A program made the position numbers and the translations under genes. Shown here one piece after another: positions 1 to 11,862 of a stretch of DNA of 11,862 bases. Numbering within the stretch: the stretch's first letter is position 1; each line of letters opens with the position of its first letter. Source of the stretch: Tannerella sp. (GTDB taxonomy: Bacteria; Bacteroidota; Bacteroidia; Bacteroidales; Tannerellaceae). The notes beneath the pieces were generated by a model. It ran no database searches and had not been told where the DNA came from. It was given only the letters and a program-made list of their open reading frames with translations. Location: positions 1 to 11,862 of the forward strand of contig JAISEZ010000019.1 in NCBI GenBank assembly GCA_031263835.1, in the 5' to 3' direction.

Positions 1-975
1 AAACCGGACTTATGCCTCTATTCGGATGGGAAGCCCGTATTGGAACAGGAAGTGGAAAACAGCACGCCGGCCATCCGGAGTTCCCTTCGGAATGTCCTGA
101 AGCGTTACGGGAAGGAAGCGCCGGAAGTATTGATCTGTGCTGAATACACGGGTCAGTACGGTTATCCGCCTGGCTGTGCCTGCGAAGAATTATGCATAGA
201 TCTGTGGATGGAAAATGCGATGCAGATAAAACATTCATCGGGACTTGACCGCGGTAAGAACGACAGGCTGGATGCCCGTAAAACAGCCGCATATGCGATT
301 CGTTTTCAGGATAAAGTCCGTCTGTTTTCCCTGCCGCAAAAGAATCCGGCAACCTTGAAACAGCCTGTCGGCGAACGCGATATGTATATGTGCGATAAAG
401 GTAAATATCAGGGACAGCTTACCGATCGGAAGCGGTTTATGAATCCGGATGATTATCGGGACAAAGCCCGGCGTGTGGATCGGATGCTGAAGGAACTGGA
501 AGCGGCTATCGATGAAATTGAAGCCGGAATCCGGAATCTGACAGATAGCGATAAAACGCTTAAGCGCCGGCACGAACTGTTGCTTTCCATAGACGGGACA
601 GGCGAAAGAACTGCTGTCAAGATGACTGTAGAAACCGGCGCATTCCGCAATTTTGACAGTGCACGCAGGTTCTGCTGCCATGCCGGGGTTGCTCCCTTTA
701 AGTATGATTCCGGCTCATCGGTACGCTCCCGGTCCAAAGTCTCCAGCCGGGCGGACAAAAGTATTAAGGCTCTTTTGCACATGGCTGCCCTGTGTGTTGC
801 CACACGGACGAAAGGCGAACTGCATGATTATTATCTCCGAAAAGTGGCGAAAGGCAAAAACAAAATGCTGATAATAAACGCTGTGAGGGGTAAACTCGTG
901 TTGCGTATGTTTGCCGTGATCAAAAATAACAGTCTTTATGAAAGAAATTATGCGTTTTGCTTGCATAAATCATAA
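1..975 (+). CDS. IS110-family transposase, 5' end outside window
   Basis: This is the DEDD-type transposase of an IS110-family insertion sequence, which moves DNA with a RuvC-like N-terminal domain, a C-terminal catalytic serine and, in this family, a structured guide (bridge) RNA. The frame is open from base 1 (reading KPDLCLYSDGKPV...), so the real start and the first Asp of the DEDD set lie upstream; the TTG at 40 is only the first start-like codon inside. Counting from the first in-window codon, the visible N-domain marks are AEYTG (Glu48) and KNDRLDARK (Asp88, Asp91). A helical linker (about 140-180) follows, then the C-terminal transposase_20 region with GVAPFKYDSGSS, where Ser237 of DSG matches the catalytic serine. 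About 324 residues are present and nothing interrupts the frame, so it may be functional. KQPVGERD, where relatives as I remember them read KQLVSERD, hints at some drift. No terminal repeats could be placed, as expected for IS110. Confidence 0.9.
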   Translation, partial: KPDLCLYSDGKPVLEQEVENSTPAIRSSLRNVLKRYGKEAPEVLICAEYTGQYGYPPGCACEELCIDLWMENAMQIKHSSGLDRGKNDRLDARKTAAYAIRFQDKVRLFSLPQKNPATLKQPVGERDMYMCDKGKYQGQLTDRKRFMNPDDYRDKARRVDRMLKELEAAIDEIEAGIRNLTDSDKTLKRRHELLLSIDGTGERTAVKMTVETGAFRNFDSARRFCCHAGVAPFKYDSGSSVRSRSKVSSRADKSIKALLHMAALCVATRTKGELHDYYLRKVAKGKNKMLIINAVRGKLVLRMFAVIKNNSLYERNYAFCLHKS

Positions 976-1028
976 GAATAGCGGGTTGAACTGCGTCGCA
1001 ATTCGGATACGGGAGGGTAAGCCCGTGT

Positions 1029-1085
1029 CCCCGGGCTGCGCCTGCGGCTTGCACGGGGCTATCCATCCTGAACGCCTTCCGGCGT
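1029..1085. repeat. REP-like GC-rich double hairpin
   Basis: Two adjacent dyads are visible. The first pairs CCCCG (1029-1033) with CGGGG (1054-1058) and has an inner stem 1035-1039/1044-1048 closed by the loop GCCT, with one T-G wobble. The second is a perfect ACGCC-TTCC-GGCGT hairpin (1072-1085). Compact GC-rich palindromes like this resemble dispersed intergenic REP-type repeats in Bacteroidetes. It could also act as a transcription stop after the transposase gene, but no T-run follows. Confidence 0.5.
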
Positions 1086-1129
1086 CGACCTGCAATGAAC
1101 AAATATATGCCATGCGTAACATCAGTTAT

Positions 1130-1341
1130 AAATTATGAATTATACGGGCATGACTTTGTGTATGGACATGGAAAATAAAATATCAACACGGAGACACGGA
1201 GGACACGGAGATTTGCTGTTCTGTAGAACGAAGTTCCTCCTCTGTGGCCTCCGGGCAAACGCTTTTCCTGCACAGAGAACACAGAGAAAACACGGCGTTC
1301 CGCCGTGCCTTTCTTCGTGTTCCCCGTGTCTCCGTGTTTAT
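1130..1341 (+). repeat. Dispersed ACACGGAG element, copy A
   Basis: The element starts with AATTATG heptamers (1132-1140), passes a 21-base block at 1149-1169 found identically at 11195-11215, then enters an imperfect long inverted repeat. The left arm, 1185-1210, is built on ACACGGAGACACGGAG. The right arm, about 1314-1339, reads CCCCGTGTCTCCGTGTTT. Inside are a CTCTGTG/CACAGAG pair and a perfect CACGGCG-TTC-CGCCGTG hairpin at about 1290-1306. Copy B at 11163-11388 is in the same orientation. Similar ACACGGAG-rich intergenic repeats recur in many environmental bacterial genomes; their function is not known to me. The short ORF across it is an artefact of the repeat. Confidence 0.8.
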
Positions 1342-1366
1342 AATTTATTTTTTATGGTCACGTACG

Positions 1367-1416
1367 ATTCAAGGGTTTTCGGCGAGGCTGACCGTTCCTG
1401 CCGAAAACCTTTGAAT
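1367..1416. repeat. 17-bp inverted repeat (hairpin)
   Basis: ATTCAAGGGTTTTCGGC (1367-1383) pairs with GCCGAAAACCTTTGAAT (1400-1416) around a 16-nt loop, and the only imperfection is one G-T wobble. The stem is long and AT-rich at its base. It could be a bidirectional terminator isolating the operon from the upstream repeat region, or a mobile repeat in its own right. TTTGAATC-like direct repeats follow at once. Confidence 0.6.
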
Positions 1417-1445
1417 CTTTGAATCATCGAATTTTTGAACCCGAA

Positions 1446-1478
1446 TTTGTTTCATGTAAGAAAAAAACACTACTTTTA
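1446..1478 (+). promoter_or_regulatory. Candidate Bacteroidetes-type promoter for the operon
   Basis: TTTG at 1446-1449 and TACTTTTA at 1471-1478 resemble the Bacteroidetes -33 TTTG and -7 TAnnTTTG boxes, with a 21-nt spacer. The last base of the -7 box deviates (A instead of G). It sits 32 nt before the ATG at 1511, leaving a short leader, and no Shine-Dalgarno sequence precedes that ATG. Similarity to a consensus is the only evidence. Confidence 0.35.
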
Positions 1479-1510
1479 CTGCCGAATTTTAAAAACAGTA
1501 TTTTTATAGA

Positions 1511-3076
1511 ATGTCACCTGGTTCGTATTACCCTCATCCCAAGAAGAGAAGAAGAGGACTCTTTTTTTTGCTGGCAGGTTTCCTGCTTGGTGTGATATGC
1601 TTTATCGCGTTATATCAACTGTCCGTTTACTACTCCACCGACGAGTCGTGTATGATGTGTCATGTCCATCCCCACGCCGAAGACAGCTGGAAGCTGTCCA
1701 CACATGTCAACAACCGTAGCGGCGTGACCGTTCACTGCGTGGACTGCCATTTGCCGCCGAAACATCAGACGGTCAGCCATTACATGGCCAAAGCCAATCT
1801 GGGCATCAAGGACGTATGGTCGTATCTGACGAAGGACAGCGCCGATTTTAACTGGGACGTGAAGTCCGAGCTGGAACATGCGGTGAAGTATATCCCCAAC
1901 GAATCATGCAAGGAATGTCACAGGAATCTTTTCCCGGGAGGGATTACGGACGACGGCATTACCGCACATCTCTATTACGATGCAAACGAGAAAAAACTGG
2001 ATTTGCAGTGTATCAGCTGTCATCTGGACGTCGGACACTATAATCCGAATTATGTACACGGGAAGATGACGGGCATTCCCGGCGCGGGAACGGCCGCTTC
2101 CAACGCGATCAGACCGGTCTTCAGCGAAGCGACGGCCGTGACGGCGTTTGCCGATTATGTCGAACAGATACCGGGCACGTCCGTTTCGTTCAAAATGATG
2201 GCCATTCCGGGCGGCACGTTCCGGATGGGCAGCACAAAGAAGGAACCTTTCCACAGGGAAGACGAATCGCCCGTACGGACGGTGACCGTCAGTCCGTTCT
2301 TCATGGCCGAAGTAGAAACGACCTGGGATCAGTTCTGGGCGTTTTTCGGAAATACGGCGAGCGAAGGCCGTACGCCGCCTGAAAAAGTGTACGCCAACAA
2401 CAGCGACCCGAACGTAGATGCGATTTCCGGGCCGACGCCGCCCTTCGGATACCCCGACCAGGGCTGGGGATACGGCGACCGGCCGGCCATCACAATGACG
2501 CACTACGCCGCCGAGACGTTCTGCCAGTGGCTGTCGAAGAAAACGGGCAAGAAATACCGCCTGCCGACCGAAGCCGAGTGGGAATACGCTGCGCGTGGCG
2601 GTACGGAAACGCCTTACTTTTTCTCCGGAAGTCCGAAGGACTATTCCGACCAGGGATTCTGGCGCAAGTTTTTCGACGCGAAAACCGACAGCATCAGCGC
2701 GTTCGTAATCTACACCAAAAACAGCCGGAACAAAACGCAGGAAGCAGTTAGCGTAAAAGCCAATCCTTTCGGGCTGAAGAATATGCTCGGGAACGTGATG
2801 GAATATTGCGCCGACAAATACGATCCCGAAGCCTACGCCAAAAGCGGCGAAGAAGTGACGAATCCGCTGGTGACGGAGGGCGAAGAATGGGTGGTACGCG
2901 GTGGAAACTATACGTCCGACGCTGCCGACCTCCGCGCCGCAGCCCGCGACTGCAGCCATCACGATACATGGCTGAAGACCGATCCGCAACAGCCCAAGAG
3001 TATCTGGTGGTACTCCGACATTCGCGGCATCGGTTTCCGGATTGTTTGCGAACCGGGTGAATCAATTATCAAATAA
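1511..3076 (+). CDS. NapC/NirT-like tetraheme cytochrome fused to FGE/SUMF1-type domain
   Basis: This is a 521-residue inner-membrane protein with a large periplasmic part. A basic N-terminus (KKRRRG, 11-16) precedes one membrane helix (about 17-38). Four CxxCH haem sites follow: C47-H51, C76-H80, C133-H137 and C167-H171. Order and spacing fit the NapC/NirT/NrfH family, which takes electrons from quinol and hands them to periplasmic partners. A linker (about 190-225) leads into a formylglycine-generating-enzyme (SUMF1/FGE-sulfatase) fold, about 226-515, with IPGGTFRMGS, RLPTEAEWEYAARGG, NPFGLKNMLGNVMEY, VVRGGNY and GIGFRIV. The active-site cysteine pair that FGE enzymes carry just after the RGGSY motif is absent (here RGGNYTSDAADLRAAAR), so sulfatase-activating chemistry is unlikely and a binding or iron-enzyme-like role is more probable. 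It heads a run with two Tat-exported sugar-type enzymes, so it may be their electron partner (inference). Confidence 0.9.
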   Translation: MSPGSYYPHPKKRRRGLFFLLAGFLLGVICFIALYQLSVYYSTDESCMMCHVHPHAEDSWKLSTHVNNRSGVTVHCVDCHLPPKHQTVSHYMAKANLGIKDVWSYLTKDSADFNWDVKSELEHAVKYIPNESCKECHRNLFPGGITDDGITAHLYYDANEKKLDLQCISCHLDVGHYNPNYVHGKMTGIPGAGTAASNAIRPVFSEATAVTAFADYVEQIPGTSVSFKMMAIPGGTFRMGSTKKEPFHREDESPVRTVTVSPFFMAEVETTWDQFWAFFGNTASEGRTPPEKVYANNSDPNVDAISGPTPPFGYPDQGWGYGDRPAITMTHYAAETFCQWLSKKTGKKYRLPTEAEWEYAARGGTETPYFFSGSPKDYSDQGFWRKFFDAKTDSISAFVIYTKNSRNKTQEAVSVKANPFGLKNMLGNVMEYCADKYDPEAYAKSGEEVTNPLVTEGEEWVVRGGNYTSDAADLRAAARDCSHHDTWLKTDPQQPKSIWWYSDIRGIGFRIVCEPGESIIK

Positions 3077-3127
3077 TTATATAAATGAACAGTATCTATT
3101 AATTCAATTTTTAAATTCAAGTGAATC

Positions 3128-4555
3128 ATGAAAAAAGAGAACAGTATCAGTAGAAGATCCTTTTTGAGAAGCTCCGCATTAGCGGGAGCAGCAGGCGTCG
3201 TCGGAACCGGAAGTGCAGCCTCCGTGCTTACTTCCTGTTGCAGTTCGGGCGGCAGTGGTGACGCGGTTAAACCGCTGAAAGAACCGGGAACGTATTACGT
3301 ACCCGACCTGGTAGACTTTGCTACCGACGGTAAAGAACTGAAAGCCGGTGTGATTGGCTGCGGTGGACGCGGCTCCGGAGCGGCTTTCAACTTTTTGGCT
3401 GCCGCCAACGGCATTACCATCACAGCTTTAGGCGATACGTTTAAAGATCGTGTAGACGATTTGGCCGGCAAGTTGAAAAAAGACAGGAACATCGACATCC
3501 CGGAATCCATGCGTTTCACGGGACTGGATGCCTACAAGCAGGTAATTGACAGTGGCGTAGACCTCGTCCTCGTGGCAACGCCGCCCAATTTCCGTCCGAT
3601 TCATTTCCAGTATGCAGTGGAAAAAGGGAAACATGCGTTCCTCGAAAAACCGATTTGCGTAGACCCCGTCGGCTATCGCACCATCATGGCTGCCGCCAAG
3701 CAGGCTGTTGCAAAGAATCTGTGTGTCGTAACCGGTACGCAGCGTCACCACCAGCGCAGCTATGTAGAATCCTACAGGCAGATTATGAACGGAGCCATCG
3801 GCGAAATCACCGGCGGCACGGTTTGGTGGAACGGCGGCATGTTGTGGTACAAAGACCGTAAGCCTGAATGGTCGGACGGCGAATGGATGATCCGCGACTG
3901 GGTGAACTGGATCTGGCTGTCCGGCGATCACATTGTGGAACAGCATGTACACAACCTGGATGTGCTGACCTGGTTTACCGGTCTGAAACCGAAAACTGCT
4001 CTGGGCTTCGGCTCGCGTCAGCGCCGCGTCACCGGCAACCAGTTCGACAATTTCAGCATCGACTTTGAGATGGAAAACGGCATCCACGTGCACAGCATGT
4101 GCCGCCAGGTACACGAAACCGGCGGTACGGTAAGCGAGTTCTTCCAGGGCACGAGAGGCTCCTGGTCAAGTACGAACGGGCATGTAATCAAAGACCTGAA
4201 AGGAAATGTGGTCTGGAAATACGACGAGGAAGCGGAAAAAGCCGCTTACAAGCAGATTGACCCGTACACGCTGGAACACGTGAACTGGATTAATCACATC
4301 CGCAGCGGGAAACTGATTGAACAGGCCTCCGAAACGGCTGTCGCCAACATGGCGGCCATCATGGGACGCGAATCGGCCTACAGCGGAAAGCTGGTGACGT
4401 GGGACGAAATGACGGCTTCCGACCTGAATCTGTATCCGAAAGACCTCGACCTCGCAAAGAAGATGGAGATCAACGGATTCGGTAACGGGAAAGAATTCAA
4501 GTTGCCGGATTACATCCACATTGCAGGGCAGCCCCAGGGTAACCAAACACGTTAA
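3128..4555 (+). CDS. Tat-exported Gfo/Idh/MocA-family oxidoreductase (putative lipoprotein)
   Basis: This 475-residue NAD(P)-dependent oxidoreductase is of the glucose-fructose oxidoreductase/inositol dehydrogenase superfamily. The N-terminus carries a twin-arginine signal (SRRSFLR, residues 8-14), a hydrophobic stretch and a lipobox LTSC at 34-37, so export in folded, cofactor-loaded form and lipid anchoring are expected. The Rossmann motif GCGGRG is at 77-82, the family's EKP catalytic lysine motif at 173-175, and a conserved GDHIVEQHVHNLDV segment at 266-279 should supply active-site histidine and aspartate. WWNGGMLWYKDRKPEWSDG (233-251) may line the substrate pocket. The substrate cannot be read from sequence; sugars, polyols and 3-keto-glycosides are family possibilities. 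The GH109 subfamily was considered, but I do not see its typical motifs. It lies 51 nt after the cytochrome gene and 3 nt before the TIM-barrel gene, so co-transcription is likely. No Shine-Dalgarno precedes the ATG. Confidence 0.9.
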   Translation: MKKENSISRRSFLRSSALAGAAGVVGTGSAASVLTSCCSSGGSGDAVKPLKEPGTYYVPDLVDFATDGKELKAGVIGCGGRGSGAAFNFLAAANGITITALGDTFKDRVDDLAGKLKKDRNIDIPESMRFTGLDAYKQVIDSGVDLVLVATPPNFRPIHFQYAVEKGKHAFLEKPICVDPVGYRTIMAAAKQAVAKNLCVVTGTQRHHQRSYVESYRQIMNGAIGEITGGTVWWNGGMLWYKDRKPEWSDGEWMIRDWVNWIWLSGDHIVEQHVHNLDVLTWFTGLKPKTALGFGSRQRRVTGNQFDNFSIDFEMENGIHVHSMCRQVHETGGTVSEFFQGTRGSWSSTNGHVIKDLKGNVVWKYDEEAEKAAYKQIDPYTLEHVNWINHIRSGKLIEQASETAVANMAAIMGRESAYSGKLVTWDEMTASDLNLYPKDLDLAKKMEINGFGNGKEFKLPDYIHIAGQPQGNQTR

Positions 4556-4558
4556 GTT

Positions 4559-5494
4559 ATGGCGCTGGACAGGAGAAACTTTTTAAAGGCAGCCGCCGCT
4601 ACAGCCGGCGGCGCCGCCTTGTCCGCCTGTGGAGGAAGCAGGGAAAAGGCCGCTTGTTGCAGGGAAGGCGAAAGCTCCTGCTGCAAGGGCAAGGACGTGA
4701 AACTGAACCTCTCGTTTCAGGAAGGAACGCCTCCGGGCGCCAGCCTGAGCGAGAAGTTTGATTTCATGGAAAAACTGGGCATCACGGGTTTTGAACCGGG
4801 CGGGCGAGGTCTTGCCGGTCGCGTGAAGGAATTCAAGGATGCCCTGAACGGCCGCAATATCAAAGTGAGCGCCATCTGTGCCGGATTTTCCGGGTTTATT
4901 CTCTCGGAAGACGAGAAAGTACGCCAGGAATGTATCGACACGATGCACGAAATCCTCACGGCCGCGGGCGAACTCGGTTCGACGGGCGTCATCATCGTGC
5001 CGGCGTTCAACAGTCAGGTGCCGGTGAAGCCGCATACGCAGGAGACGCGCGATTTCCTGTGCGAACAGTTCGACCGGATGGGCACGTTCGCCGCGCAGCA
5101 CAACACGACCATCATTCTGGAGCCGCTGAACCGCGGGGAAGCATTCTATCTGCGTCTGGTAGCCGATGCCGCGTCCATCTGTCGCGACATCAACAATCCG
5201 GGCGTCCGCTGTCTGGGCGACTTCTGGCACATGACGCGGGAAGAAACGTGTGACATGGGCGCATTCCTTTCCGCCGGGAAGTATTTGCAGCACGTGCACA
5301 TGGCCAGCCGGAAACGCCGTTCGATGCCCGGCGAGGACGGCGAGGCCGACAACTACGTAGCCGGATTCAAAGGATTGAAGATGATAGGCTACGACAAGTA
5401 CGTCAGTTTCGAATGCGGCTGCCAGAGCGAAGACCGCGCCGCTACCGTCACGGCCGCCGTACAGCTTCTGCGCGATCAGTGGGCGCAAGCCTGA
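4559..5494 (+). CDS. Tat-exported TIM-barrel sugar isomerase/epimerase-like lipoprotein
   Basis: This 311-residue protein belongs to the xylose-isomerase-like TIM-barrel (AP_endonuc_2 fold) superfamily, often annotated sugar phosphate or hydroxypyruvate isomerase. The signal shows a twin-arginine motif (DRRNFLK, 4-10) and a lipobox LSAC at 21-24. A short tether follows with two adjacent cysteine pairs (Cys33-34, Cys41-42). The barrel starts near 47 (VKLNLSFQEG). The usual divalent-metal set is visible: Glu188 (ILEPLNR), Asp221 and His224 (GDFWHM), His247 (HVHMAS) and Glu285 (SFECG). Family members catalyse keto/aldo isomerisation or C3 epimerisation, and some act as lyases or hydratases on 3-keto sugars. 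It starts 3 nt after the oxidoreductase stop codon, so the two are almost certainly translated from one message and probably act in sequence. The substrate is unknown; phosphorylated sugars are unlikely if the protein is exported. Confidence 0.88.
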   Translation: MALDRRNFLKAAAATAGGAALSACGGSREKAACCREGESSCCKGKDVKLNLSFQEGTPPGASLSEKFDFMEKLGITGFEPGGRGLAGRVKEFKDALNGRNIKVSAICAGFSGFILSEDEKVRQECIDTMHEILTAAGELGSTGVIIVPAFNSQVPVKPHTQETRDFLCEQFDRMGTFAAQHNTTIILEPLNRGEAFYLRLVADAASICRDINNPGVRCLGDFWHMTREETCDMGAFLSAGKYLQHVHMASRKRRSMPGEDGEADNYVAGFKGLKMIGYDKYVSFECGCQSEDRAATVTAAVQLLRDQWAQA

Positions 5495-5501
5495 AAAAAC
5501 T

Positions 5502-6200
5502 ATGTCGTTAGTATATTCCGACATGCAGTTGAGCGAGGTGGTAGAAGAAAACCCCTCGCTCATTCCCGTCATTCACCGGTTTGGCATCTACCTGGGTCTG
5601 GGCGACGCGCAGGTAGAGGAAATTTGCAGGAAACTGAATCTGGACACGGACTTTTTCCTGACGATGATTAATACATTCCTGAACGAAGACTATTTCCCGG
5701 AAAAGAAACTGCAGGGATTCCATATCTCGCTCATTATTGATTATTTGACAAAAACGAATCAGTATTACCGGCGTCACCAGCTGCCGAACATCGAACGCCA
5801 CCTGCGTTCGTTCATCTCGATGAGCAATCCGGACAATCATTCACTTGAACTGATAGGCAGGATATTCGACTCATTCAAGGACGGACTGATGAAGCGCATC
5901 CAAAAGGATGAAAACGAATGGTTTCCCTACTGCGTTGCGCTGAGCGCCCGGCAGGCGAAGGAGCGCCTCCTCCCGCTTGCGACGGACGGCGCCGACGAAA
6001 GCGAAGACGCCATCGAAGCGCTGCTGACGGACATGCGGCACATCATGATCAAGCATCTCACGGGCGAATATGATGAAAATCTCTGCCATGCGGTGATTCT
6101 TTCCGTCAGCACACTGAGCCGGGACATCAAGCAGCATAACCGTATCCGGTACCGTATTCTGCAAACCGTGGTGGCCGAAATGGAGCATAACGGCCTCTGA
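5502..6200 (+). CDS. ScdA/RIC-like hemerythrin-type protein, divergent
   Basis: This 232-residue cytoplasmic protein has no signal peptide. Residues about 9-62 (SEVVEENPSLIPVIHRFGIY onward) resemble the ScdA_N/DUF542 domain of RIC/YtfE iron-sulfur repair proteins, but lack the Cys pair often seen there. The rest is helical and hemerythrin-like: YYRRHQLPNIERH (88-100), KRIQKDENEWFPY (131-143), MRHIMIKHL (178-186) and DIKQHNRIRYRIL (208-220). Tentative alignment to the YtfE di-iron ligands gives His92, Arg132, Asp136, His185, His212 and Arg216, so three expected His/Glu ligands appear substituted. The di-iron centre may be altered or lost, and the protein may be a sensor or adaptor rather than a repair enzyme. 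It begins 7 nt after the isomerase gene and ends 6 nt before a LuxR-type regulator, an arrangement that suggests the two work together in a redox, NO or iron response (inference). Confidence 0.65.
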   Translation: MSLVYSDMQLSEVVEENPSLIPVIHRFGIYLGLGDAQVEEICRKLNLDTDFFLTMINTFLNEDYFPEKKLQGFHISLIIDYLTKTNQYYRRHQLPNIERHLRSFISMSNPDNHSLELIGRIFDSFKDGLMKRIQKDENEWFPYCVALSARQAKERLLPLATDGADESEDAIEALLTDMRHIMIKHLTGEYDENLCHAVILSVSTLSRDIKQHNRIRYRILQTVVAEMEHNGL

Positions 6201-6206
6201 CAGCCC

Positions 6207-6782
6207 ATGTCCAAACCCCGACAAATTGCCATTCTATTGCCCGACACGCTTCAGAGCATCGGGTTGCGAAGTCTACTGACCGATTATTTTTCGCCGGTGG
6301 AAATCACCCGTTTTTCTTCGTTCGAGGCGTTCGCTTCGGCGGAAAAGGAGGTGTTTGACTTTTATTTCATTCTGCCGGAACTTTTTGTCGCCCATGCCGA
6401 TTTCTTCCTGCCCATACGCAACAAAACCGTTTGTATCCTGTACCGGGATGAAGCGGCGGCGGCAAACGCCTGGCCATACCTGCCCATCCTGGCGCCGCAG
6501 GAAGTCATTATCGGACAGTTGCGGCAGGCGATGCAGGAAGAAAATCCGTCGGGTCTCATGGAAAGCAGCCGGGAACTCTCCGCCCGTGAAAGGGAGGTAC
6601 TTCAGCTGATTGTCGCAGGGCTGATGAACAAGGAAATAGCCGACAAGCTGTACATCAGCCTGAATACGGTATTGACCCACCGGAAAAACATCACCTCCAA
6701 ACTCGGAATCAAGACCGTCCCCGGCCTGACGTTCTATGCGATCACCAACGGCCTGATTTCGGGAAACGAGATTGCGCTGTAA
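6207..6782 (+). CDS. LuxR-type transcriptional regulator with degenerate receiver
   Basis: This 191-residue DNA-binding regulator has a clear LuxR/NarL-type helix-turn-helix at its C-terminus (about 124-184): LSAREREVLQLIVAGLMNKEI, then ADKLYISLNTVLTHRKNITSKLGI. The N-terminal 115 residues have receiver-like hydrophobic strands (QIAILLPDT, VFDFYFILPELF, KTVCILYRDE), but the position where response regulators carry the phosphorylated Asp is Leu56. Control by a histidine kinase is therefore unlikely; it may respond to a ligand or to its neighbour. It reminds me of Porphyromonas CdhR-like LuxR regulators linked to haemin response, but that assignment is from memory and unverified. It is the last gene of the run, 6 nt after the hemerythrin-like gene, and could control the operon or act elsewhere. 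Confidence 0.85.
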   Translation: MSKPRQIAILLPDTLQSIGLRSLLTDYFSPVEITRFSSFEAFASAEKEVFDFYFILPELFVAHADFFLPIRNKTVCILYRDEAAAANAWPYLPILAPQEVIIGQLRQAMQEENPSGLMESSRELSAREREVLQLIVAGLMNKEIADKLYISLNTVLTHRKNITSKLGIKTVPGLTFYAITNGLISGNEIAL

Positions 6783-6802
6783 GCAAGGGAGCATTTCAAA
6801 AT

Positions 6803-6838
6803 GTTGCATCGTGCTACGCCTGCGGCGTGATGCGACAA
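6803..6838 (+). terminator. Possible weak terminator hairpin after the operon
   Basis: TGTTGCATC...ACGCC pairs imperfectly with GGCGTGATGCGACA across a TGC loop, with a 5-nt bulge and one T-G wobble, 21 nt after the stop codon of the regulator. Only a short T-run (TTTG) follows, so it is a poor intrinsic terminator and may only protect the 3' end. Confidence 0.3.
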
Positions 6839-6985
6839 TTTGAGTTGCGCACCTTTTCTCCACAAATTTTCGAATTACAGAGAACCGTTTCCCATTCCCC
6901 TGTTTGAAGAATTTACTGAACGTCAGTCCGTTTGACGGGAATAAAAAAAGCAAGATTGGACAAGCTCCGGGGAAAAAGGATGCGC

Positions 6986-6993
6986 TACTTTTG
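6986..6993 (+). promoter_or_regulatory. TAnnTTTG-type -7 box
   Basis: TACTTTTG matches the Bacteroidetes housekeeping -7 consensus exactly. I do not find a TTTG at the expected -33 distance; the nearest TTG is at 6956-6958, which is too far. It would give a leader of about 200 nt for the large gene. A second box, TAATATTG at 7198-7205, one mismatch from consensus, would fit if translation starts at 7256. Confidence 0.35.
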
Positions 6994-7071
6994 TCCCCGC
7001 ATTTAGATTTGGAAGAAACAGAGAGAAGAAAAATGAAGCAACTGTAACCATCCTTTTATAAGGGAGGAACA

Positions 7072-7194
7072 TTGATTTCACGTTTTGGCCGGGGCTGTCG
7101 CAGGACAATCCCGGCCTTTCGGAATCTTCGCTGCGCCATACCGTGCCTTGCGACCGGCGTTCCGAATCGCCATTATGCAATTGAAATGAATTAA
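7072..7194 (+). CDS. Possible 40-residue leader ORF (TTG start), speculative
   Basis: A Shine-Dalgarno-like AGGGAGGA at 7061-7068 is followed at normal spacing by a TTG codon and 40 open codons, ending with TAA 13 nt before the ATG at 7208. The peptide would be basic and cysteine-containing (ISRFGRGCRRTIPAF...), with no recognised domain. The 7087-7116 hairpin lies inside it. Strong SD sequences are uncommon in Bacteroidetes, which makes the site notable, but a TTG start and the short length keep confidence low. It could equally be untranslated leader. Confidence 0.15.
   Translation: MISRFGRGCRRTIPAFRNLRCAIPCLATGVPNRHYAIEMN
7087..7116 (+). promoter_or_regulatory. Strong leader hairpin (attenuator or terminator-like)
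   Basis: GGCCGGGGCTGTC (7087-7099) pairs with GACAATCCCGGCC (7104-7116) around a GCAG loop. Of 13 positions, 11 are Watson-Crick, one is G-T and one is C-A. Only TTT follows, so intrinsic termination would be weak. Its position about 90 nt before the gene start fits an attenuator, an RNA-stability element or a protein-binding site. Confidence 0.5.
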
Positions 7195-7207
7195 CGGTAA
7201 TATTGTT

Positions 7208-10200
7208 ATGAAAAAAATGTTTACTATATGGACCCAGCACCGGGAGAAAATAGCTATGAAAACGACCTTCGCAGAAAGCTTCCCGGTGCGTTGCGTGGCG
7301 CTGGCTGTTTGGATGGGAATCGCATGGCAGCCGGTTGCCGCGCAACTTTTTGCCGGCAATGCCCGGCAGGCAGCGGGAAATACGGTGTTCTTCGGGCAAT
7401 ATCCCCAGCAATTTCTGGGATGTACGCAGGGAGGATATTACATCGCCCCGCCCGCCCGGCCTTACGTGTTGAAGCGGGACCACCGGCACCGGGACGGACA
7501 GAATCCGCCCCAGCCTTACCAGTCCTACTTTGCGCTGGAGCCGGTGACGTGGCGGGTGCTGACCGATAATGCCCAGGGCTTGCTGCTCGTTGCCGACCGG
7601 ATACTGGACTGCCGGCCCTATCATGCCTCCGCCTCCGCCGCGACATGGAGCGGCTCGACGCTGAGAGCCGGACTGGAATCCGATTTCTTCAACGGTTCGA
7701 CGGCGACGCCCGTACAGACAGATTATTTTTCGGCAGATGAAAAGAATGCCATCGTACTTTCGTCCGTAGCCAATCCGACCGTGGGATTCGGAAAAGACCC
7801 GGACGGCATTACCACGCAGGACCACGTATTCCTGCTGGCCGCGGAAGACAGCGTGTTCTTTGCCGGGGCGGCTGACCGTCAGGGCGTCAATACGGATTAC
7901 GCCGCTTCGTACGAAAATACGGCCGACCCCTGGAGCGTGGCCGACAGCTGGCTGCTCCGCACCCACAGCGCCGGCCCTTTTGCAGGATATGCATCTTATG
8001 TACAGGCGAACGGCGCTGTCAACACCTTCGACGGGCTGAGCAACGGACTGCAGGCACGCATCCGTCCGGCGCTGCATTTGTCGAAAGACGCCGTCGTTCT
8101 GTTTTCGGATGCAAACAAACCGGCCTGGTCGCCGGGCGCGCCTCTGACCGCCTTATCCGCCTCCGCCTCCGGCACGCTGAAACTGACGCTGGTCAGCAGC
8201 GCACTGACGCTCGGTTCGTCCGACGACGGAACCTATAAAAATGCAACGGCCGGAAGTCAGCTGTCGCTGAACTATTCGGGACTGAGCGCCGGCGCGGGAC
8301 GGTATATCTCCTGCGTACTTGAGAAACAGGGCGGGGACGCCCTCTATTATGGAAAAATAGCGGAAGCGACGGCGTCTTCCGGGACGGTGAATATTCCGGT
8401 TCCTCCCGGCCTGGCCAACGGCGCTTATGTGCTGAAGCTATTCTGCGAAGCGCCCTCAGCCGGCGTGCAGACGCCCGACCGGGCGAGCCGTCCGGCTGTC
8501 ATTCATCTGGGCACAGGGCCGGCCACGGCTCCGCAGATTGGTGCCGTCACTTTGCCGGATGGCTGGGTGGGGGTAACCTATGATGAACCCCTAATCATTT
8601 CCGGCGCTCCGGCGCCTGCATTATCCATCAGCAGCGGCAGTCTGCCTCCGGGTCTTGTCCTGGAAGCCGACGGACGGCTGCACGGAACGCCCCGCTCGGC
8701 GGGAACCTTCCCGTTCGAGGTGACGGCGGTCAATGCAGGGGGGAGCGACGCTAAATCATGTACTGTTATGATTCTTTTGCCGGCAGCCCCGTCTATTGCC
8801 GCTCCGCTTGCCGGAGCGGTGCCTGACGGGGTGCTCGGCATCCCCATCGCCCCCGTTACCCTTACGGTTGCGGGGAAGCCGGCGCCGGTGCTTTCCGTCA
8901 TTTCCGGAAAACTGCCGGACGGACTGTCGTTAGACCCGGTTGCCGGAATCATCCGCGGGACGCCCGCGAAAACCGAATACGCCCGATTCACCATCCAGGC
9001 AGGCAATGCGCTCGGCGTCGATTCGAAAACCTATTCGATGACCGTTCGCGCTTCCGGCCCGGCCGCCGCGCCGAAAATCACGACCGTTACGGATACGCTT
9101 CCCGCGGCCTTCGTGAATCTCCCGTATGCTTTCAGGATACAGGCGGCGGGAATGCCGGCGCCGGCGTTTGACCTCGACGTCCCCCTGCCGGCCGGCCTGA
9201 GCTTTGATTTTACGACCGGGGAAATCAGCGGCACGCCGTTGCCCCCGGCTGCCGGTACGAACACGACGGTCACCGTGACGGCAAGGAACGGAACCCTGCC
9301 GGACGACGTCAAAACGTTTGTCCTGCCCGTCGCGTACACGTTAAATCCTCCGGTATTGACGCTCACGCCGGCGATTGCCACGGCCGGCAGCAGTCCGTTC
9401 GGCATGACGGCGACGTTCGACCAGCCGGTATCGGGACTGACCGCCGCCGATGTGACCGTGAACTTCGGAACCGTTTCCGGCATGGCCATGTCCGGTCCGT
9501 CGGGGACGCCCGCACGCGCTGCCGTCTGGACGTTTGACGTGACGCCCGACCCCGCCGCTCCGGACGGGAAGGTGATGGAAATCTCCATACGGAAGGGCGC
9601 CGCACGGGAATCGCACGGCGCCGCCACTTACAGGGCGTCCGATACGACCCGCCTGACGTATCGCAGCGACGTGCCGGCCGTCACGTTCAGCATCGCGGAC
9701 GGCATGACGTTCCTTTCCGACATGAACGGATGTTTCCTTGATATTGCTCCTCACGGAACGGGCGCAGGCGTCAACCGTTTCTTTGTGAACAGCGTCGCGG
9801 CAGACCCTGCCAATATCGCCGGCCTGCTTGAAATCCGCCGGAACGGGACGCTTTATACCGGATGGAAGCCCGTTCTCCGCGGAACCCGCGTGACGGTTGC
9901 CGGGCATTTCGGACAGGGCGATTATACGCTTCTTTTCAGGGGCGACCGGCTGACCAATAACGCCGGCAAACAGGCGGCGCCAAAGACGCTTCATTTCTCG
10001 GTACAGGTTTCGAAAAACTGGTACGAGGACTGCCTGCAATCGTTCAGGCAGACGTATCCGGTCTCCGCTTCCGACCGCCGGATTACCCTCGCGTACAGCG
10101 GGCTGTCGGATTACCTCGCTGCCCCGGACGGCGGCAAGCTGCCGGCGCAGGTGATGCTGCCCGCCGGACAGACGGAGGTGACCTTTTCGTTCCGCACGCG

Positions 10201-11029
10201 GGCCGTACCGGCCGGACTGGAAGGCGACTCGGTCGGCATCGTCATCACGCCGGACGGTTTGCCGGGCGCGACCTGCCGGTTCCGGCTGTACAACCGTCCG
10301 AAGGCGGAAGATGTGATTTATATCCCCGTCACGACCCGGTATGCCGGTTACTTCAAGCTGCTGAAAGGCGGTTCGCCCGGCCTGCAGCGCAGTCTCGACG
10401 GCGGCATGCACTGGAGCGACGCATGGTCGCCGGCTTCCACGCTCGAAATGCAGAATGCCGGGAAAAGGATACTGTTCCGCGAGCCGGACGGCTGCGAAAC
10501 GACGGTCATCCCCATAGAGGAAGGCGTCAACATGGCCGTTCAGCACCGGGTTGCGCTGCCGGAGGCGGAATATCTCAATACCTCGCCGATGGCCGGCGTC
10601 TATAGCGTCCACGGCGGCTCGGACTTTATCTTCCGGGTGAAGCCGACCGGGCCGTATGCCGGTATGCCGCCGCTCGTGACAACCGACCGGCATGTGCCCG
10701 ATTCGATTGGCGTCAAGGTCGAACATAACGGCGACGGCAGCTATGAGGTGCGCATACGTGTTGTCCGCGAGTCGGTACGTGTCACCCTGAAGGTGGCGGC
10801 GGGAACGGGTACCGGAAATGAAGGTGTCGAAGCTCCGCGCGTATGGGTTTCCGGCAAACAGCTGTATATCGCTTCCGTCCGCGACGATGAAGCGAAAGTA
10901 TATACCCTGGCGGGGATATTGTTGAAACGTATCCCGGTCGCGGCAGGCAAAACCGTCCAGACACCTCTACCTTCCGGGGTTTATATCGTCAAACTGAACC
11001 GCGGAGAAGTCTTCAAAGTCAGTGATTAG
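7208..11029 (+). CDS. Large secreted DUF6273/Ig-repeat surface protein with C-terminal sorting-like tail
   Basis: This 1273-residue exported protein is a mosaic. ATG 7256 (Met17) is a plausible alternative start: GGGAGA precedes it, and MKTTFAESFPVRC then leads straight into the signal core (29-45, VAA-QL cleavage near 45). Residues about 57-300 resemble DUF6273 (VFFGQYPQ, PVTWRVLTDNAQGLLLVADR, DHVFLLAAEDS, WLLRTHS, RPALHLS). Residues about 310-436 form a beta-rich module. Three putative-Ig (He_PIG-like) repeats follow, marked by SGSLPPGL...LHGTP (476-494), SGKLPDGL...IRGTP (566-585) and LPAGL...EISGTP (660-676). An Ig-like bacterial module comes next (about 714-818, PFGMTATFDQPVSGLTAADV), then less clear beta domains. 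The last about 65 residues (VWVSGKQLYIASV...AKVYTLAGILLKR...LPSGVYIVKL) resemble T9SS type A or DUF6383-like tails. Probably a cell-surface or adhesive protein; no catalytic residues are recognised. The gene looks GC-richer than its flanks. Its stop codon lies in a 7-bp repeat array. Confidence 0.85.
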   Translation: MKKMFTIWTQHREKIAMKTTFAESFPVRCVALAVWMGIAWQPVAAQLFAGNARQAAGNTVFFGQYPQQFLGCTQGGYYIAPPARPYVLKRDHRHRDGQNPPQPYQSYFALEPVTWRVLTDNAQGLLLVADRILDCRPYHASASAATWSGSTLRAGLESDFFNGSTATPVQTDYFSADEKNAIVLSSVANPTVGFGKDPDGITTQDHVFLLAAEDSVFFAGAADRQGVNTDYAASYENTADPWSVADSWLLRTHSAGPFAGYASYVQANGAVNTFDGLSNGLQARIRPALHLSKDAVVLFSDANKPAWSPGAPLTALSASASGTLKLTLVSSALTLGSSDDGTYKNATAGSQLSLNYSGLSAGAGRYISCVLEKQGGDALYYGKIAEATASSGTVNIPVPPGLANGAYVLKLFCEAPSAGVQTPDRASRPAVIHLGTGPATAPQIGAVTLPDGWVGVTYDEPLIISGAPAPALSISSGSLPPGLVLEADGRLHGTPRSAGTFPFEVTAVNAGGSDAKSCTVMILLPAAPSIAAPLAGAVPDGVLGIPIAPVTLTVAGKPAPVLSVISGKLPDGLSLDPVAGIIRGTPAKTEYARFTIQAGNALGVDSKTYSMTVRASGPAAAPKITTVTDTLPAAFVNLPYAFRIQAAGMPAPAFDLDVPLPAGLSFDFTTGEISGTPLPPAAGTNTTVTVTARNGTLPDDVKTFVLPVAYTLNPPVLTLTPAIATAGSSPFGMTATFDQPVSGLTAADVTVNFGTVSGMAMSGPSGTPARAAVWTFDVTPDPAAPDGKVMEISIRKGAARESHGAATYRASDTTRLTYRSDVPAVTFSIADGMTFLSDMNGCFLDIAPHGTGAGVNRFFVNSVAADPANIAGLLEIRRNGTLYTGWKPVLRGTRVTVAGHFGQGDYTLLFRGDRLTNNAGKQAAPKTLHFSVQVSKNWYEDCLQSFRQTYPVSASDRRITLAYSGLSDYLAAPDGGKLPAQVMLPAGQTEVTFSFRTRAVPAGLEGDSVGIVITPDGLPGATCRFRLYNRPKAEDVIYIPVTTRYAGYFKLLKGGSPGLQRSLDGGMHWSDAWSPASTLEMQNAGKRILFREPDGCETTVIPIEEGVNMAVQHRVALPEAEYLNTSPMAGVYSVHGGSDFIFRVKPTGPYAGMPPLVTTDRHVPDSIGVKVEHNGDGSYEVRIRVVRESVRVTLKVAAGTGTGNEGVEAPRVWVSGKQLYIASVRDDEAKVYTLAGILLKRIPVAAGKTVQTPLPSGVYIVKLNRGEVFKVSD

Positions 11030-11069
11030 TGGTTAGTGATTAGTGATTAGTGGTTAATGGTTAGTGGTT
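11021..11069 (+). repeat. 7-bp tandem repeat array (AGTGRTT)
   Basis: Seven head-to-tail heptamers are present: AGTGATT, AGTGGTT, AGTGATT, AGTGATT, AGTGGTT, AATGGTT, AGTGGTT. The first unit forms the last codons of the large gene, and the stop TAG (11027-11029) spans the first unit boundary. It resembles short tandemly repeated repetitive sequences known from intergenic DNA of several phyla. Confidence 0.9.
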
Positions 11070-11094
11070 AATGCGAATCTGTAGTAACGGCGAA

Positions 11095-11140
11095 GGGCTG
11101 AAAGCCCGGCATAACCCAGCCCAATGGCAACGCCTTGGGT
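11095..11140. repeat. Dispersed double-hairpin repeat (GGGCT-GAA-AGCCC / ACCCA-TGGGT)
   Basis: A perfect GGGCT-GAA-AGCCC hairpin (11095-11107) is followed by ACCCA (11114-11118) pairing with TGGGT (11136-11140), with an inner GGC-AAC-GCC stem (11126-11134). I recall similar 'ggctgaaagcccg...aacccagccc' intergenic repeats in Bacteroidetes genomes. It may also serve as the transcription end of the large gene, though no T-run follows. Confidence 0.5.
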
Positions 11141-11162
11141 ATGGAATGACGCACGCCTTTAC

Positions 11163-11388
11163 AAATTATGAATTATGAATGATACGGCACGTAACATGAC
11201 TTTGTGTATGGACATAAAGAATAAATTATCAACACGGAGACACAGAGAACACGGAGATTCGCTTCTCTGCGGTACGAAGTTCCCCCTCTGTGGCCTGTGT
11301 AAGTTCTTATCATGCACAGGAGGACACGGAGAAAACACGGCGTTCTGCCGCGGAGCCGGTCTCTGTGTTCTCCGTGTCTCCGTGTTTC
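11163..11388 (+). repeat. Dispersed ACACGGAG element, copy B
   Basis: This is the second, direct-orientation copy of the element at 1130-1341. It has AATTATG heptamers (11164-11177), the identical 21-base block (11195-11215), a left arm from 11231 (ACACGGAGACACAGAG...), a shared central part (ACGAAGTTCC, CTCTGTGGCCT, GAAAACACGGCGTTC) and a right arm ending TCCGTGTCTCCGTGTTT at about 11387. Both copies lose similarity directly after the right arm, which marks that edge well. The central hairpin differs between copies (CGCCGTG in A, TGCCGCG in B). Confidence 0.8.
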
Positions 11389-11419
11389 AAAATTCAGTAT
11401 TTTACATTAGAGAATTTGG

Positions 11420-11671
11420 GAAAACCGGGCTTGGTTTTAGGAAAACCACGCTTGGTTCTGGGAAAACCACGCTTGGTTTTAGGAAAACCGAGCTTGGTTT
11501 TAGGAAAACCATGCTTGGTTTTAGGAAAACCATGCTTGATTTTGGGAAAACCATGCTTGGTTTTAGGAAAATCATGCTTGGTTCTGGGAAAACCATGCTT
11601 GATTTTAGGAAAACCATGCCTGGTTCTGGGAAAACCATGCTTGATTTTAGGAAAACCGGGCTTGGTCTTGG
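11420..11671. repeat. Twelve-unit 21-bp palindromic minisatellite
   Basis: Twelve uninterrupted units of exactly 21 bp follow the plan GAAAACCatGCTTGGTTtTaG. Each unit is itself a hairpin, AAAACCA-TGCT-TGGTTTT in its best form. Variation falls on unit positions 7-11 (GGG, ACG, GAG, ATG) and 16-20 (GGTTTTAG, GGTTCTGG, GATTTTAG). The outer units 1 and 12 share GGG, while the inner ones share ATG, as expected for growth from the middle. Read as protein it gives a 7-residue period (LGKPCLV), but with no start signal or ordinary protein flanks, so coding is doubtful. Confidence 0.92.
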
Positions 11672-11756
11672 GGAATCAGTAGATAGTAGGCAGATGAGGC
11701 GCCTGTTGCCGTATCCCGGTATGGAGATGTGCGGCGTTCCCGCCGGCTACCCGCCT

Positions 11757-11786
11757 GTACGGGCGAACACACAGGTTCGCCCCTAC
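11757..11786. repeat. GGGCGAAC inverted-repeat hairpin
   Basis: GGGCGAAC (11761-11768) and GTTCGCCC (11775-11782) are perfect arms around ACACAG. GTA/TAC extends the stem beyond one C-C mismatch. The same core with its GTAGGGGCGAAC flank is a very widespread intergenic repeat in bacterial genomes. It may also terminate transcription, but only a distant T-run (11800-11804) follows. Confidence 0.7.
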
Positions 11787-11829
11787 TACTGACTCACATT
11801 TTTACACGATATTAAACGAAGAAAGATAG

Positions 11830-11862
11830 ATGAAATTAATTAGACGAATTTTCAATAGAGCA
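11830..11862 (+). CDS. Possible start of next gene, cut by window end
   Basis: An ATG at 11830 opens 11 codons to the window edge (MKLIRRIFNRA). It follows an AT-rich, purine-rich stretch (GAAGAAAGATAG) that could bind ribosomes, and the repeat pile-up ends just before it. The basic start would suit a signal peptide or a membrane protein, but too little is visible to name it or be sure that it is coding. Confidence 0.35.
   Translation, partial: MKLIRRIFNRA

Follow-up and report, generated by a model that had tools for sequence, protein, structure and literature searches.

Exported sugar dehydrogenases of the nicotinamide adenine dinucleotide (NAD) type pose a problem, since the periplasm holds no NAD to exchange: what re-oxidises the enzyme? 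The glucose-fructose oxidoreductase (GFOR) of Zymomonas uses a second sugar to complete its redox cycle, and the YcjQRS enzymes of Escherichia coli are cytosolic. YcjQRS is described as two sugar dehydrogenases plus an epimerase/isomerase, and the gene list given for it contains no cytochrome (PMC11543891). BT2158, of the BT2156-BT2160 system of Bacteroides thetaiotaomicron, is reported to be a periplasmic 3-dehydrogenase (PMC11300592), and neither PMC11300592 nor PMC11501099 uses the word "cytochrome" in its main text. In Rhizobium radiobacter, a flavin adenine dinucleotide (FAD)-dependent glucoside 3-dehydrogenase is stated to deliver electrons to a c-type cytochrome (PMC9915066). Here we analyse a locus on an 11,862-nt stretch of Tannerella sp. 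DNA (assembly GCA_031263835.1, contig JAISEZ010000019.1, positions 1 to 11,862, forward strand; hereafter the window), in which the gene for a tetrahaem membrane cytochrome fused to an FGE-fold domain directly precedes genes for a Gfo/Idh/MocA-type dehydrogenase (Gfo) and a TIM-barrel enzyme (TIM), both predicted to be exported by twin-arginine translocation (Tat).

A cytochrome gene adjoining the dehydrogenase is what distinguishes the window from GFOR and other exported Gfo/Idh enzymes and, on the texts cited above, from the BT2156-BT2160 and YcjQRS systems. The Rhizobium system joins an FAD enzyme to a monohaem cytochrome, whereas the window joins a Gfo/Idh enzyme to a tetrahaem membrane cytochrome. 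Respiratory oxidation at sugar C3 is already known, but with a flavoenzyme; the pair described here is a variant with a Gfo/Idh enzyme, and its known pieces are the NapC/NrfH cytochromes, exported Gfo enzymes, the BT2156-BT2160 system and the FAD/cytochrome c glucoside 3-dehydrogenase. Among the matches listed from the open-licence PubMed Central literature, we found no description of a cytochrome-FGE fusion or of a cytochrome with a Gfo/keto-sugar pathway.

The three genes occupy open reading frames (ORFs) on the + strand at 1511-3076, 3128-4555 and 4559-5494, with intergenic gaps of 51 and 3 nt, and an ORF check confirmed the coordinates and gaps of the initial annotation, which had treated the genes as a trio. 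The trio is indeed conserved as neighbours, but it is not the steadiest unit: the steadiest core is the pair of fusion cytochrome and Tat-exported Gfo/Idh lipoprotein, TIM being a frequent third member whose place in many distant relatives is empty or taken by another gene. Among relatives of gene 1 (best 80 of 127 stretches kept), Gfo lies directly downstream of the cytochrome in 80/80 loci and TIM follows Gfo in 75/80; four of the other five reach a contig end, and one, L049, truly lacks TIM. A further relative search listed 120 of 7227 matches. Fetched loci overlap in part (L080 and L096 are the same record, as are L049 and L094), and such repeats enter the totals of 117 loci, 116 cytochromes, 110 Gfo rows and 76 TIM rows. 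The cytochrome rows are 116 of 118 cluster members after a length and label filter; export and motif tallies used identity and length filters. Three alignments (A1, A2 and A3) hold the window sequence plus 26 of 44, 26 of 42 and 12 of 19 candidate rows, respectively, picked by eye, neighbour families were named from scans of one or a few members per BLAST cluster, and whole-genome lists and coordinates were compiled by hand.

At the level of whole genomes, the cytochrome was found in 33 of 247 Bacteroidales genomes (E ≤ 1e-60) and Gfo likewise in 33 (E ≤ 1e-80), with both in 32; G118 gave no Gfo match and G046 no cytochrome. The 33 genomes carry the cytochrome at 38 places (one place in 28, two in 5), and Gfo adjoins it at 33 of these (same strand, at most 600 bases). 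The exceptions are a contig end (G118), a GH43 gene in the next position (G232), a Gfo gene 9.3 kb away (G102:C24) and other Gfo genes that intervene (G166 and G080). The cytochromes are down to 45% identical to that of the window and their adjacent Gfo proteins down to 44%, while the flanking genes differ between genomes, and therefore selection, rather than recent ancestry, keeps the pair together. We rejected a chance neighbourhood, as the genes stay neighbours across an order. Sampling 296 genomes across the class showed the full fusion in only four, all of the window's own family, with 15 other matches confined to the FGE part; in a phylum-wide sample of 382 genomes (E ≤ 1e-90) it occurred in three, one of which, G822, lies outside the order and carries the fusion, then Gfo, then another twin-Arg Gfo.

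The partner can apparently change. At L098, identity to the window is 68% for the cytochrome but only 44% for Gfo, and a PF06439 gene follows; L099 has a BT2158-like Gfo (172.6 bits against a cut-off of 750) next to its cytochrome. By sequence, both fit a cytochrome that serves several Gfo types. Mirror-tree distances over 25 loci correlated with r = 0.69 (0.81 without L098) but are uncorrected for species relatedness and therefore carry no weight as proof of interaction. One genome (G180) contains two cytochrome-Gfo pairs, at C1 (L095) and C4 (L094), one with TIM and one without. In L091 (NZ_OY725790.1), a record of 278 kb that was deposited as a plasmid of Parabacteroides distasonis, the operon has a TonB-dependent receptor downstream; P. 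distasonis keeps the same gene order as the window. In L092, on an Aquisphaera plasmid, a planctomycete relative of Gfo (36%) has a DUF1080 gene on one side and a sugar isomerase/epimerase gene on the other, and no cytochrome is annotated in the stretch examined.

Gene 1 had been taken as a membrane tetrahaem cytochrome, an assignment that overlooked the FGE-fold domain making up half of the protein. What had been said of the other half holds: residues 1-200 (1511-2110, + strand) form a NapC/NrfH-type membrane-anchored tetrahaem domain, with a PF03264 (Cytochrom_NNT) match of 91.6 bits (cut-off 24.1), a single hydrophobic anchor around residues 16-34 and CxxCH motifs at residues 47, 76, 133 and 167. 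On the + strand, these motifs are C47-M-M-C-H51 with H53 behind it (1649-1663), CVDCH (1736-1750), CKECH (1907-1921) and CISCH (2009-2023), and all four are kept in 116/116 cytochrome rows. K94 and D101, invariant in 27/27 aligned sequences, align with K82 and D89 of NrfH (2j7a; residue numbers counted from the printed alignment), which we take to form the quinol site there. Two positions behind the haem-1 His, NrfH has M49, whereas the cytochrome has a histidine (H53) that does not vary. The protein thus shares its anchor, its four CxxCH motifs, the PF03264 domain and the K82/D89 equivalents with the NrfH/NapC/CymA tetrahaem quinol dehydrogenases, and differs from them in its fused domain, in haem 1 and in having as constant neighbour a Gfo/Idh enzyme rather than a nitrite, nitrate or dimethyl sulfoxide reductase. 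Identity as plain NrfH was rejected (TIGR03153 70.3 bits against a cut-off of 134.2, no CxxCHxM, FGE half present). No other PF03264 protein was found at E ≤ 0.001 in the window's genome, which is incomplete (63% completeness). A CcsB-like gene three to four genes downstream forms a cluster in 10/81 loci; the one member scanned, from L040, scored 170.5 against the TIGR03144 cut-off of 187.6.

The second half of the fusion, residues 228-485 (2192-2965, + strand), matches the FGE/SUMF1 fold (PF03781, 138 bits). FGE has two copper-binding active-site cysteines; neither appears in the alignment to 6s07, nor at that place in the 27-row alignment, and identity as a sulfatase-maturing FGE was rejected on this ground. 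Sulfatases (PF00884) occur in 213/247 genomes, too commonly to discriminate. The nearest structure to the domain is PvdO, with which, as with FGE, it shares a fold; we know of no haem domain in PvdO/FGE proteins. In the AlphaFold model of the fusion (whole mean 67.8) the cytochrome half was poor, with 10-residue means of 33-68 over residues 51-200, and was set aside, such that structural readings come from the FGE half and the Gfo model only; structure families absent from the fold-match lists were not counted as excluded.

The dehydrogenase (3128-4555, + strand) matches GFO_IDH_MocA (PF01408, 40.6 bits, cut-off 24), and its E173-K174-P175, with the EKP lysine, is invariant in 27/27. Its TAT_signal match is barely above cut-off (23.2 against 22.7); the twin arginines R9-R10 (3152-3157, + strand) are invariant in 27/27 and the motif is present in 110/110 rows. 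The lipobox Cys37 (3236-3238, + strand) is likewise invariant in 27/27, and a strict lipobox pattern is found in 103/110 rows. The Gfo model (mean predicted local distance difference test score 82.8) has as nearest structures sugar dehydrogenases and oxidoreductive glycosidases, several sugar C3 dehydrogenases among them, although a shared fold shows no function. The BT_2158 glycoside 3-dehydrogenase profile (NF058561) gave 25.5 bits against a cut-off of 750. From its Tat export we infer a tightly bound NAD(P).

TIM (4559-5494, + strand) is an AP_endonuc_2/xylose-isomerase-like barrel (PF01261, 99.1 bits, cut-off 31.1), predicted to be Tat-exported, with a lipobox at Cys24. Its TAT_signal score is slightly under the Pfam cut-off (21.7 against 22.7) and over that of NCBIfam (20.5 against 16.7). 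Twin-Arg signals had been assigned to both enzymes, and they recur in 76/76 TIM rows as they do in Gfo. The further assignment of both as lipoproteins stands for the window, but a lipobox is present in only 60/76 TIM rows, and TIM is therefore not always a lipoprotein. Against the PDB, TIM matched 3kws (486 bits) and YcjR (6wn6, 88.9 bits, E = 3e-24), the latter, a 3-keto-glucoside 4-epimerase, being its nearest characterised relative. The EPLNR, GDFxHM and HVH motifs and the final E match in the YcjR alignment, and E188, D221, H247 and E285, which presumably form the metal site of YcjR-type epimerases, are invariant in 13/13. The profile of the IolO 5-keto-L-gluconate epimerase (NF041099) gave 82.9 bits, under its cut-off of 300.

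It is likely that the locus performs sugar-ketone chemistry. The 3-keto-disaccharide hydrolase family PF06439 is present in 33/33 cytochrome genomes compared with 77/247 overall (p = 6e-20), at a median of 10 genes per cytochrome genome, a copy number that saturates near 12 scored candidates. Several loci have BT2158-like Gfo genes (124-181 bits against a cut-off of 750) as neighbours of the pair. The 3-keto-glycoside chemistry first suggested for Gfo and TIM is thus backed by gene context and phylogenetic profile. We rejected the pair as a mere marker of sugar-rich genomes, as the cytochrome occurs in 0/44 genomes that have GH43 and lack PF06439.

We propose, at about even confidence, that the pair is a two-protein periplasmic redox module in which electrons from the dehydrogenase pass through the cytochrome to menaquinone. 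Gfo would fold around NAD in the cytoplasm, be exported by Tat with the cofactor bound and be anchored as a lipoprotein. It would then oxidise a sugar hydroxyl, most likely the one at position C3 in a glycoside, giving a 3-keto sugar on which TIM, where present, may act by epimerisation, isomerisation or cleavage in the manner of YcjR. The fusion cytochrome, anchored in the membrane, would re-oxidise the reduced Gfo on the periplasmic side, its FGE-fold domain docking onto or touching the dehydrogenase; the four haems would relay the electrons to menaquinone, on which fumarate reductase can draw in turn. That electrons move from the enzyme towards quinone, direction included, is something we infer with the chances roughly balanced. 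A candidate for getting electrons from bound NADH to haem is the FGE-fold domain.

Several observations weigh against this proposal. Profile scans found no flavoprotein among the window genes scanned, and we know of no precedent for direct electron transfer from NADH to haem. Haem 1 is of the CxxCHxH rather than the CxxCHxM type. The distances of Gfo and cytochrome are incongruent in L098, which gives the largest residual. The GH43 control is also enriched in cytochrome genomes (26/33, p = 1.6e-7), and part of the profile signal therefore reflects general saccharolysis. PF06439 genes rarely cluster physically with the cytochrome (5/117 loci, two of them the same record), 12 of 36 whole-genome loci lack a second gene of keto-sugar type among those examined, and the cytochrome is absent from eight genomes with at least four PF06439 copies, so it is not a constant requirement of PF06439 pathways. 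Finally, the known NapC/NrfH/CymA proteins are described as quinol-oxidising donors (PMC12285233); drawing electrons from the quinol pool is opposite to the direction that sugar oxidation needs.

This last point, together with the retained PF03264 domain and NrfH-like K/D residues, would suit outward flow, in which electrons from menaquinol reduce either the FGE-fold domain or the cofactor bound to Gfo and thereby a periplasmic keto sugar or other acceptor. With menaquinol at about -75 mV and the ketone/secondary-alcohol couple at about -0.2 V, menaquinol would be a poor donor for that couple or for bound NAD, and we regard this as decidedly unlikely. An unlikely alternative is that Gfo is redox-neutral, oxidising, rearranging and reducing its substrate, and that the cytochrome only rescues enzyme left as NADH after loss of the keto product, trapped for want of exchangeable NAD in the periplasm. 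The nearest folds of Gfo include bound-cofactor enzymes, namely NAD-dependent sulfoquinovosidases and GFOR, which close their own redox cycle, and a general service role would explain a single cytochrome place in 28/33 genomes beside a median of 10 PF06439 genes; the one-to-one packing with one Gfo type at 33/38 places, and the two places in 5/33 genomes, suggest stoichiometric turnover instead.

In an unlikely variant, modelled by analogy on PvdO, which oxidises a small molecule, the FGE-fold domain might itself be the redox converter, taking hydride or electrons from trapped Gfo NADH or from a keto-sugar intermediate and feeding them, one at a time and with neither flavin nor the FGE copper site, into the tetrahaem chain and menaquinone. 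If true, this would be a flavin-free periplasmic route from nicotinamide to quinone, with an entry point common to many Bacteroidales 3-keto-sugar loci. The cytochrome-FGE protein could also be a maturation or assembly factor that modifies or docks the exported Gfo and TIM and carries no catalytic electrons; both the missing copper cysteines and the expense of four haems, strange in a docking factor, speak against this and make it quite unlikely. Mere co-regulation, with cytochrome and Gfo induced together for separate pathways, would accommodate the 5/38 places where the orthologous Gfo is not directly downstream (one a contig end); given a pair co-conserved over 18 family labels (109 being the highest label in the sample) among otherwise varied neighbours, it is very improbable.

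The packed run continues beyond TIM with a RIC/ScdA-like gene (5502-6200, + strand; TIGR03652 44.5 bits, under the cut-off of 204.7) and, as its final gene, a LuxR/GerE-type regulator (6207-6782, + strand; PF00196 65.4 bits), followed by a terminator-like hairpin found in a hairpin scan (6802-6837, + strand), which is weak evidence since the region has 11 such sites against a shuffle mean of 7.7. The two genes occur as a single fused protein in L012:12061-12966, L060:6602-7549 and L064:13931-14806, and therefore look like a two-part regulator; by sequence, the RIC/ScdA-like protein is probably half of a regulator, and the 5502-6782 pair suggests one with a RIC-like sensor half. They were rejected as core members, with RIC in 54/80 and LuxR in 52/80 loci (E ≤ 1e-20), and among L093-L129 both were seen in L093 and L095 only.

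At its left end the window opens within an IS110-family transposase (1-975; PF02371; NF033542 122.1 bits, cut-off 140), which lies upstream of the cytochrome gene in the place taken at many other loci by a Gfo of 388 residues. In Parabacteroides loci (L017:5413-9703 and others), a Gfo of about 388 residues with no TAT_signal match and a LacZ-type beta-galactosidase precede the trio, and the LacZ cluster is present in 18/81 loci. Two copies of an element of about 200 bases with inverted repeats (1149-1346 and 11195-11394, 79-90% identity in pieces) flank the operon and a large downstream gene (7208-11029), which encodes a 1273-residue protein with DUF6273, immunoglobulin-like repeats and a weak type IX secretion system sorting tail. 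A 21-base tandem repeat array (11370-11705) lies within an ORF of 205 residues, which is possibly not a real gene. Gene 1 has its best relatives in Tannerella sp. (87-89% identity), and the window's genome is close to Tannerella metagenome-assembled genomes.

For exported dehydrogenases with no periplasmic NAD to draw on, the fusion cytochrome is a candidate electron acceptor, tied to the gut-bacterial 3-keto-sugar pathway by adjacency and phylogenetic profile. The pair probably lets this gut bacterium and its relatives oxidise sugars outside the cytoplasm, with the electrons going to the respiratory chain. If this is true, part of non-hydrolytic glycan breakdown would be respiratory, and the fusion cytochrome would serve as a marker for finding it and as a target for knock-out.

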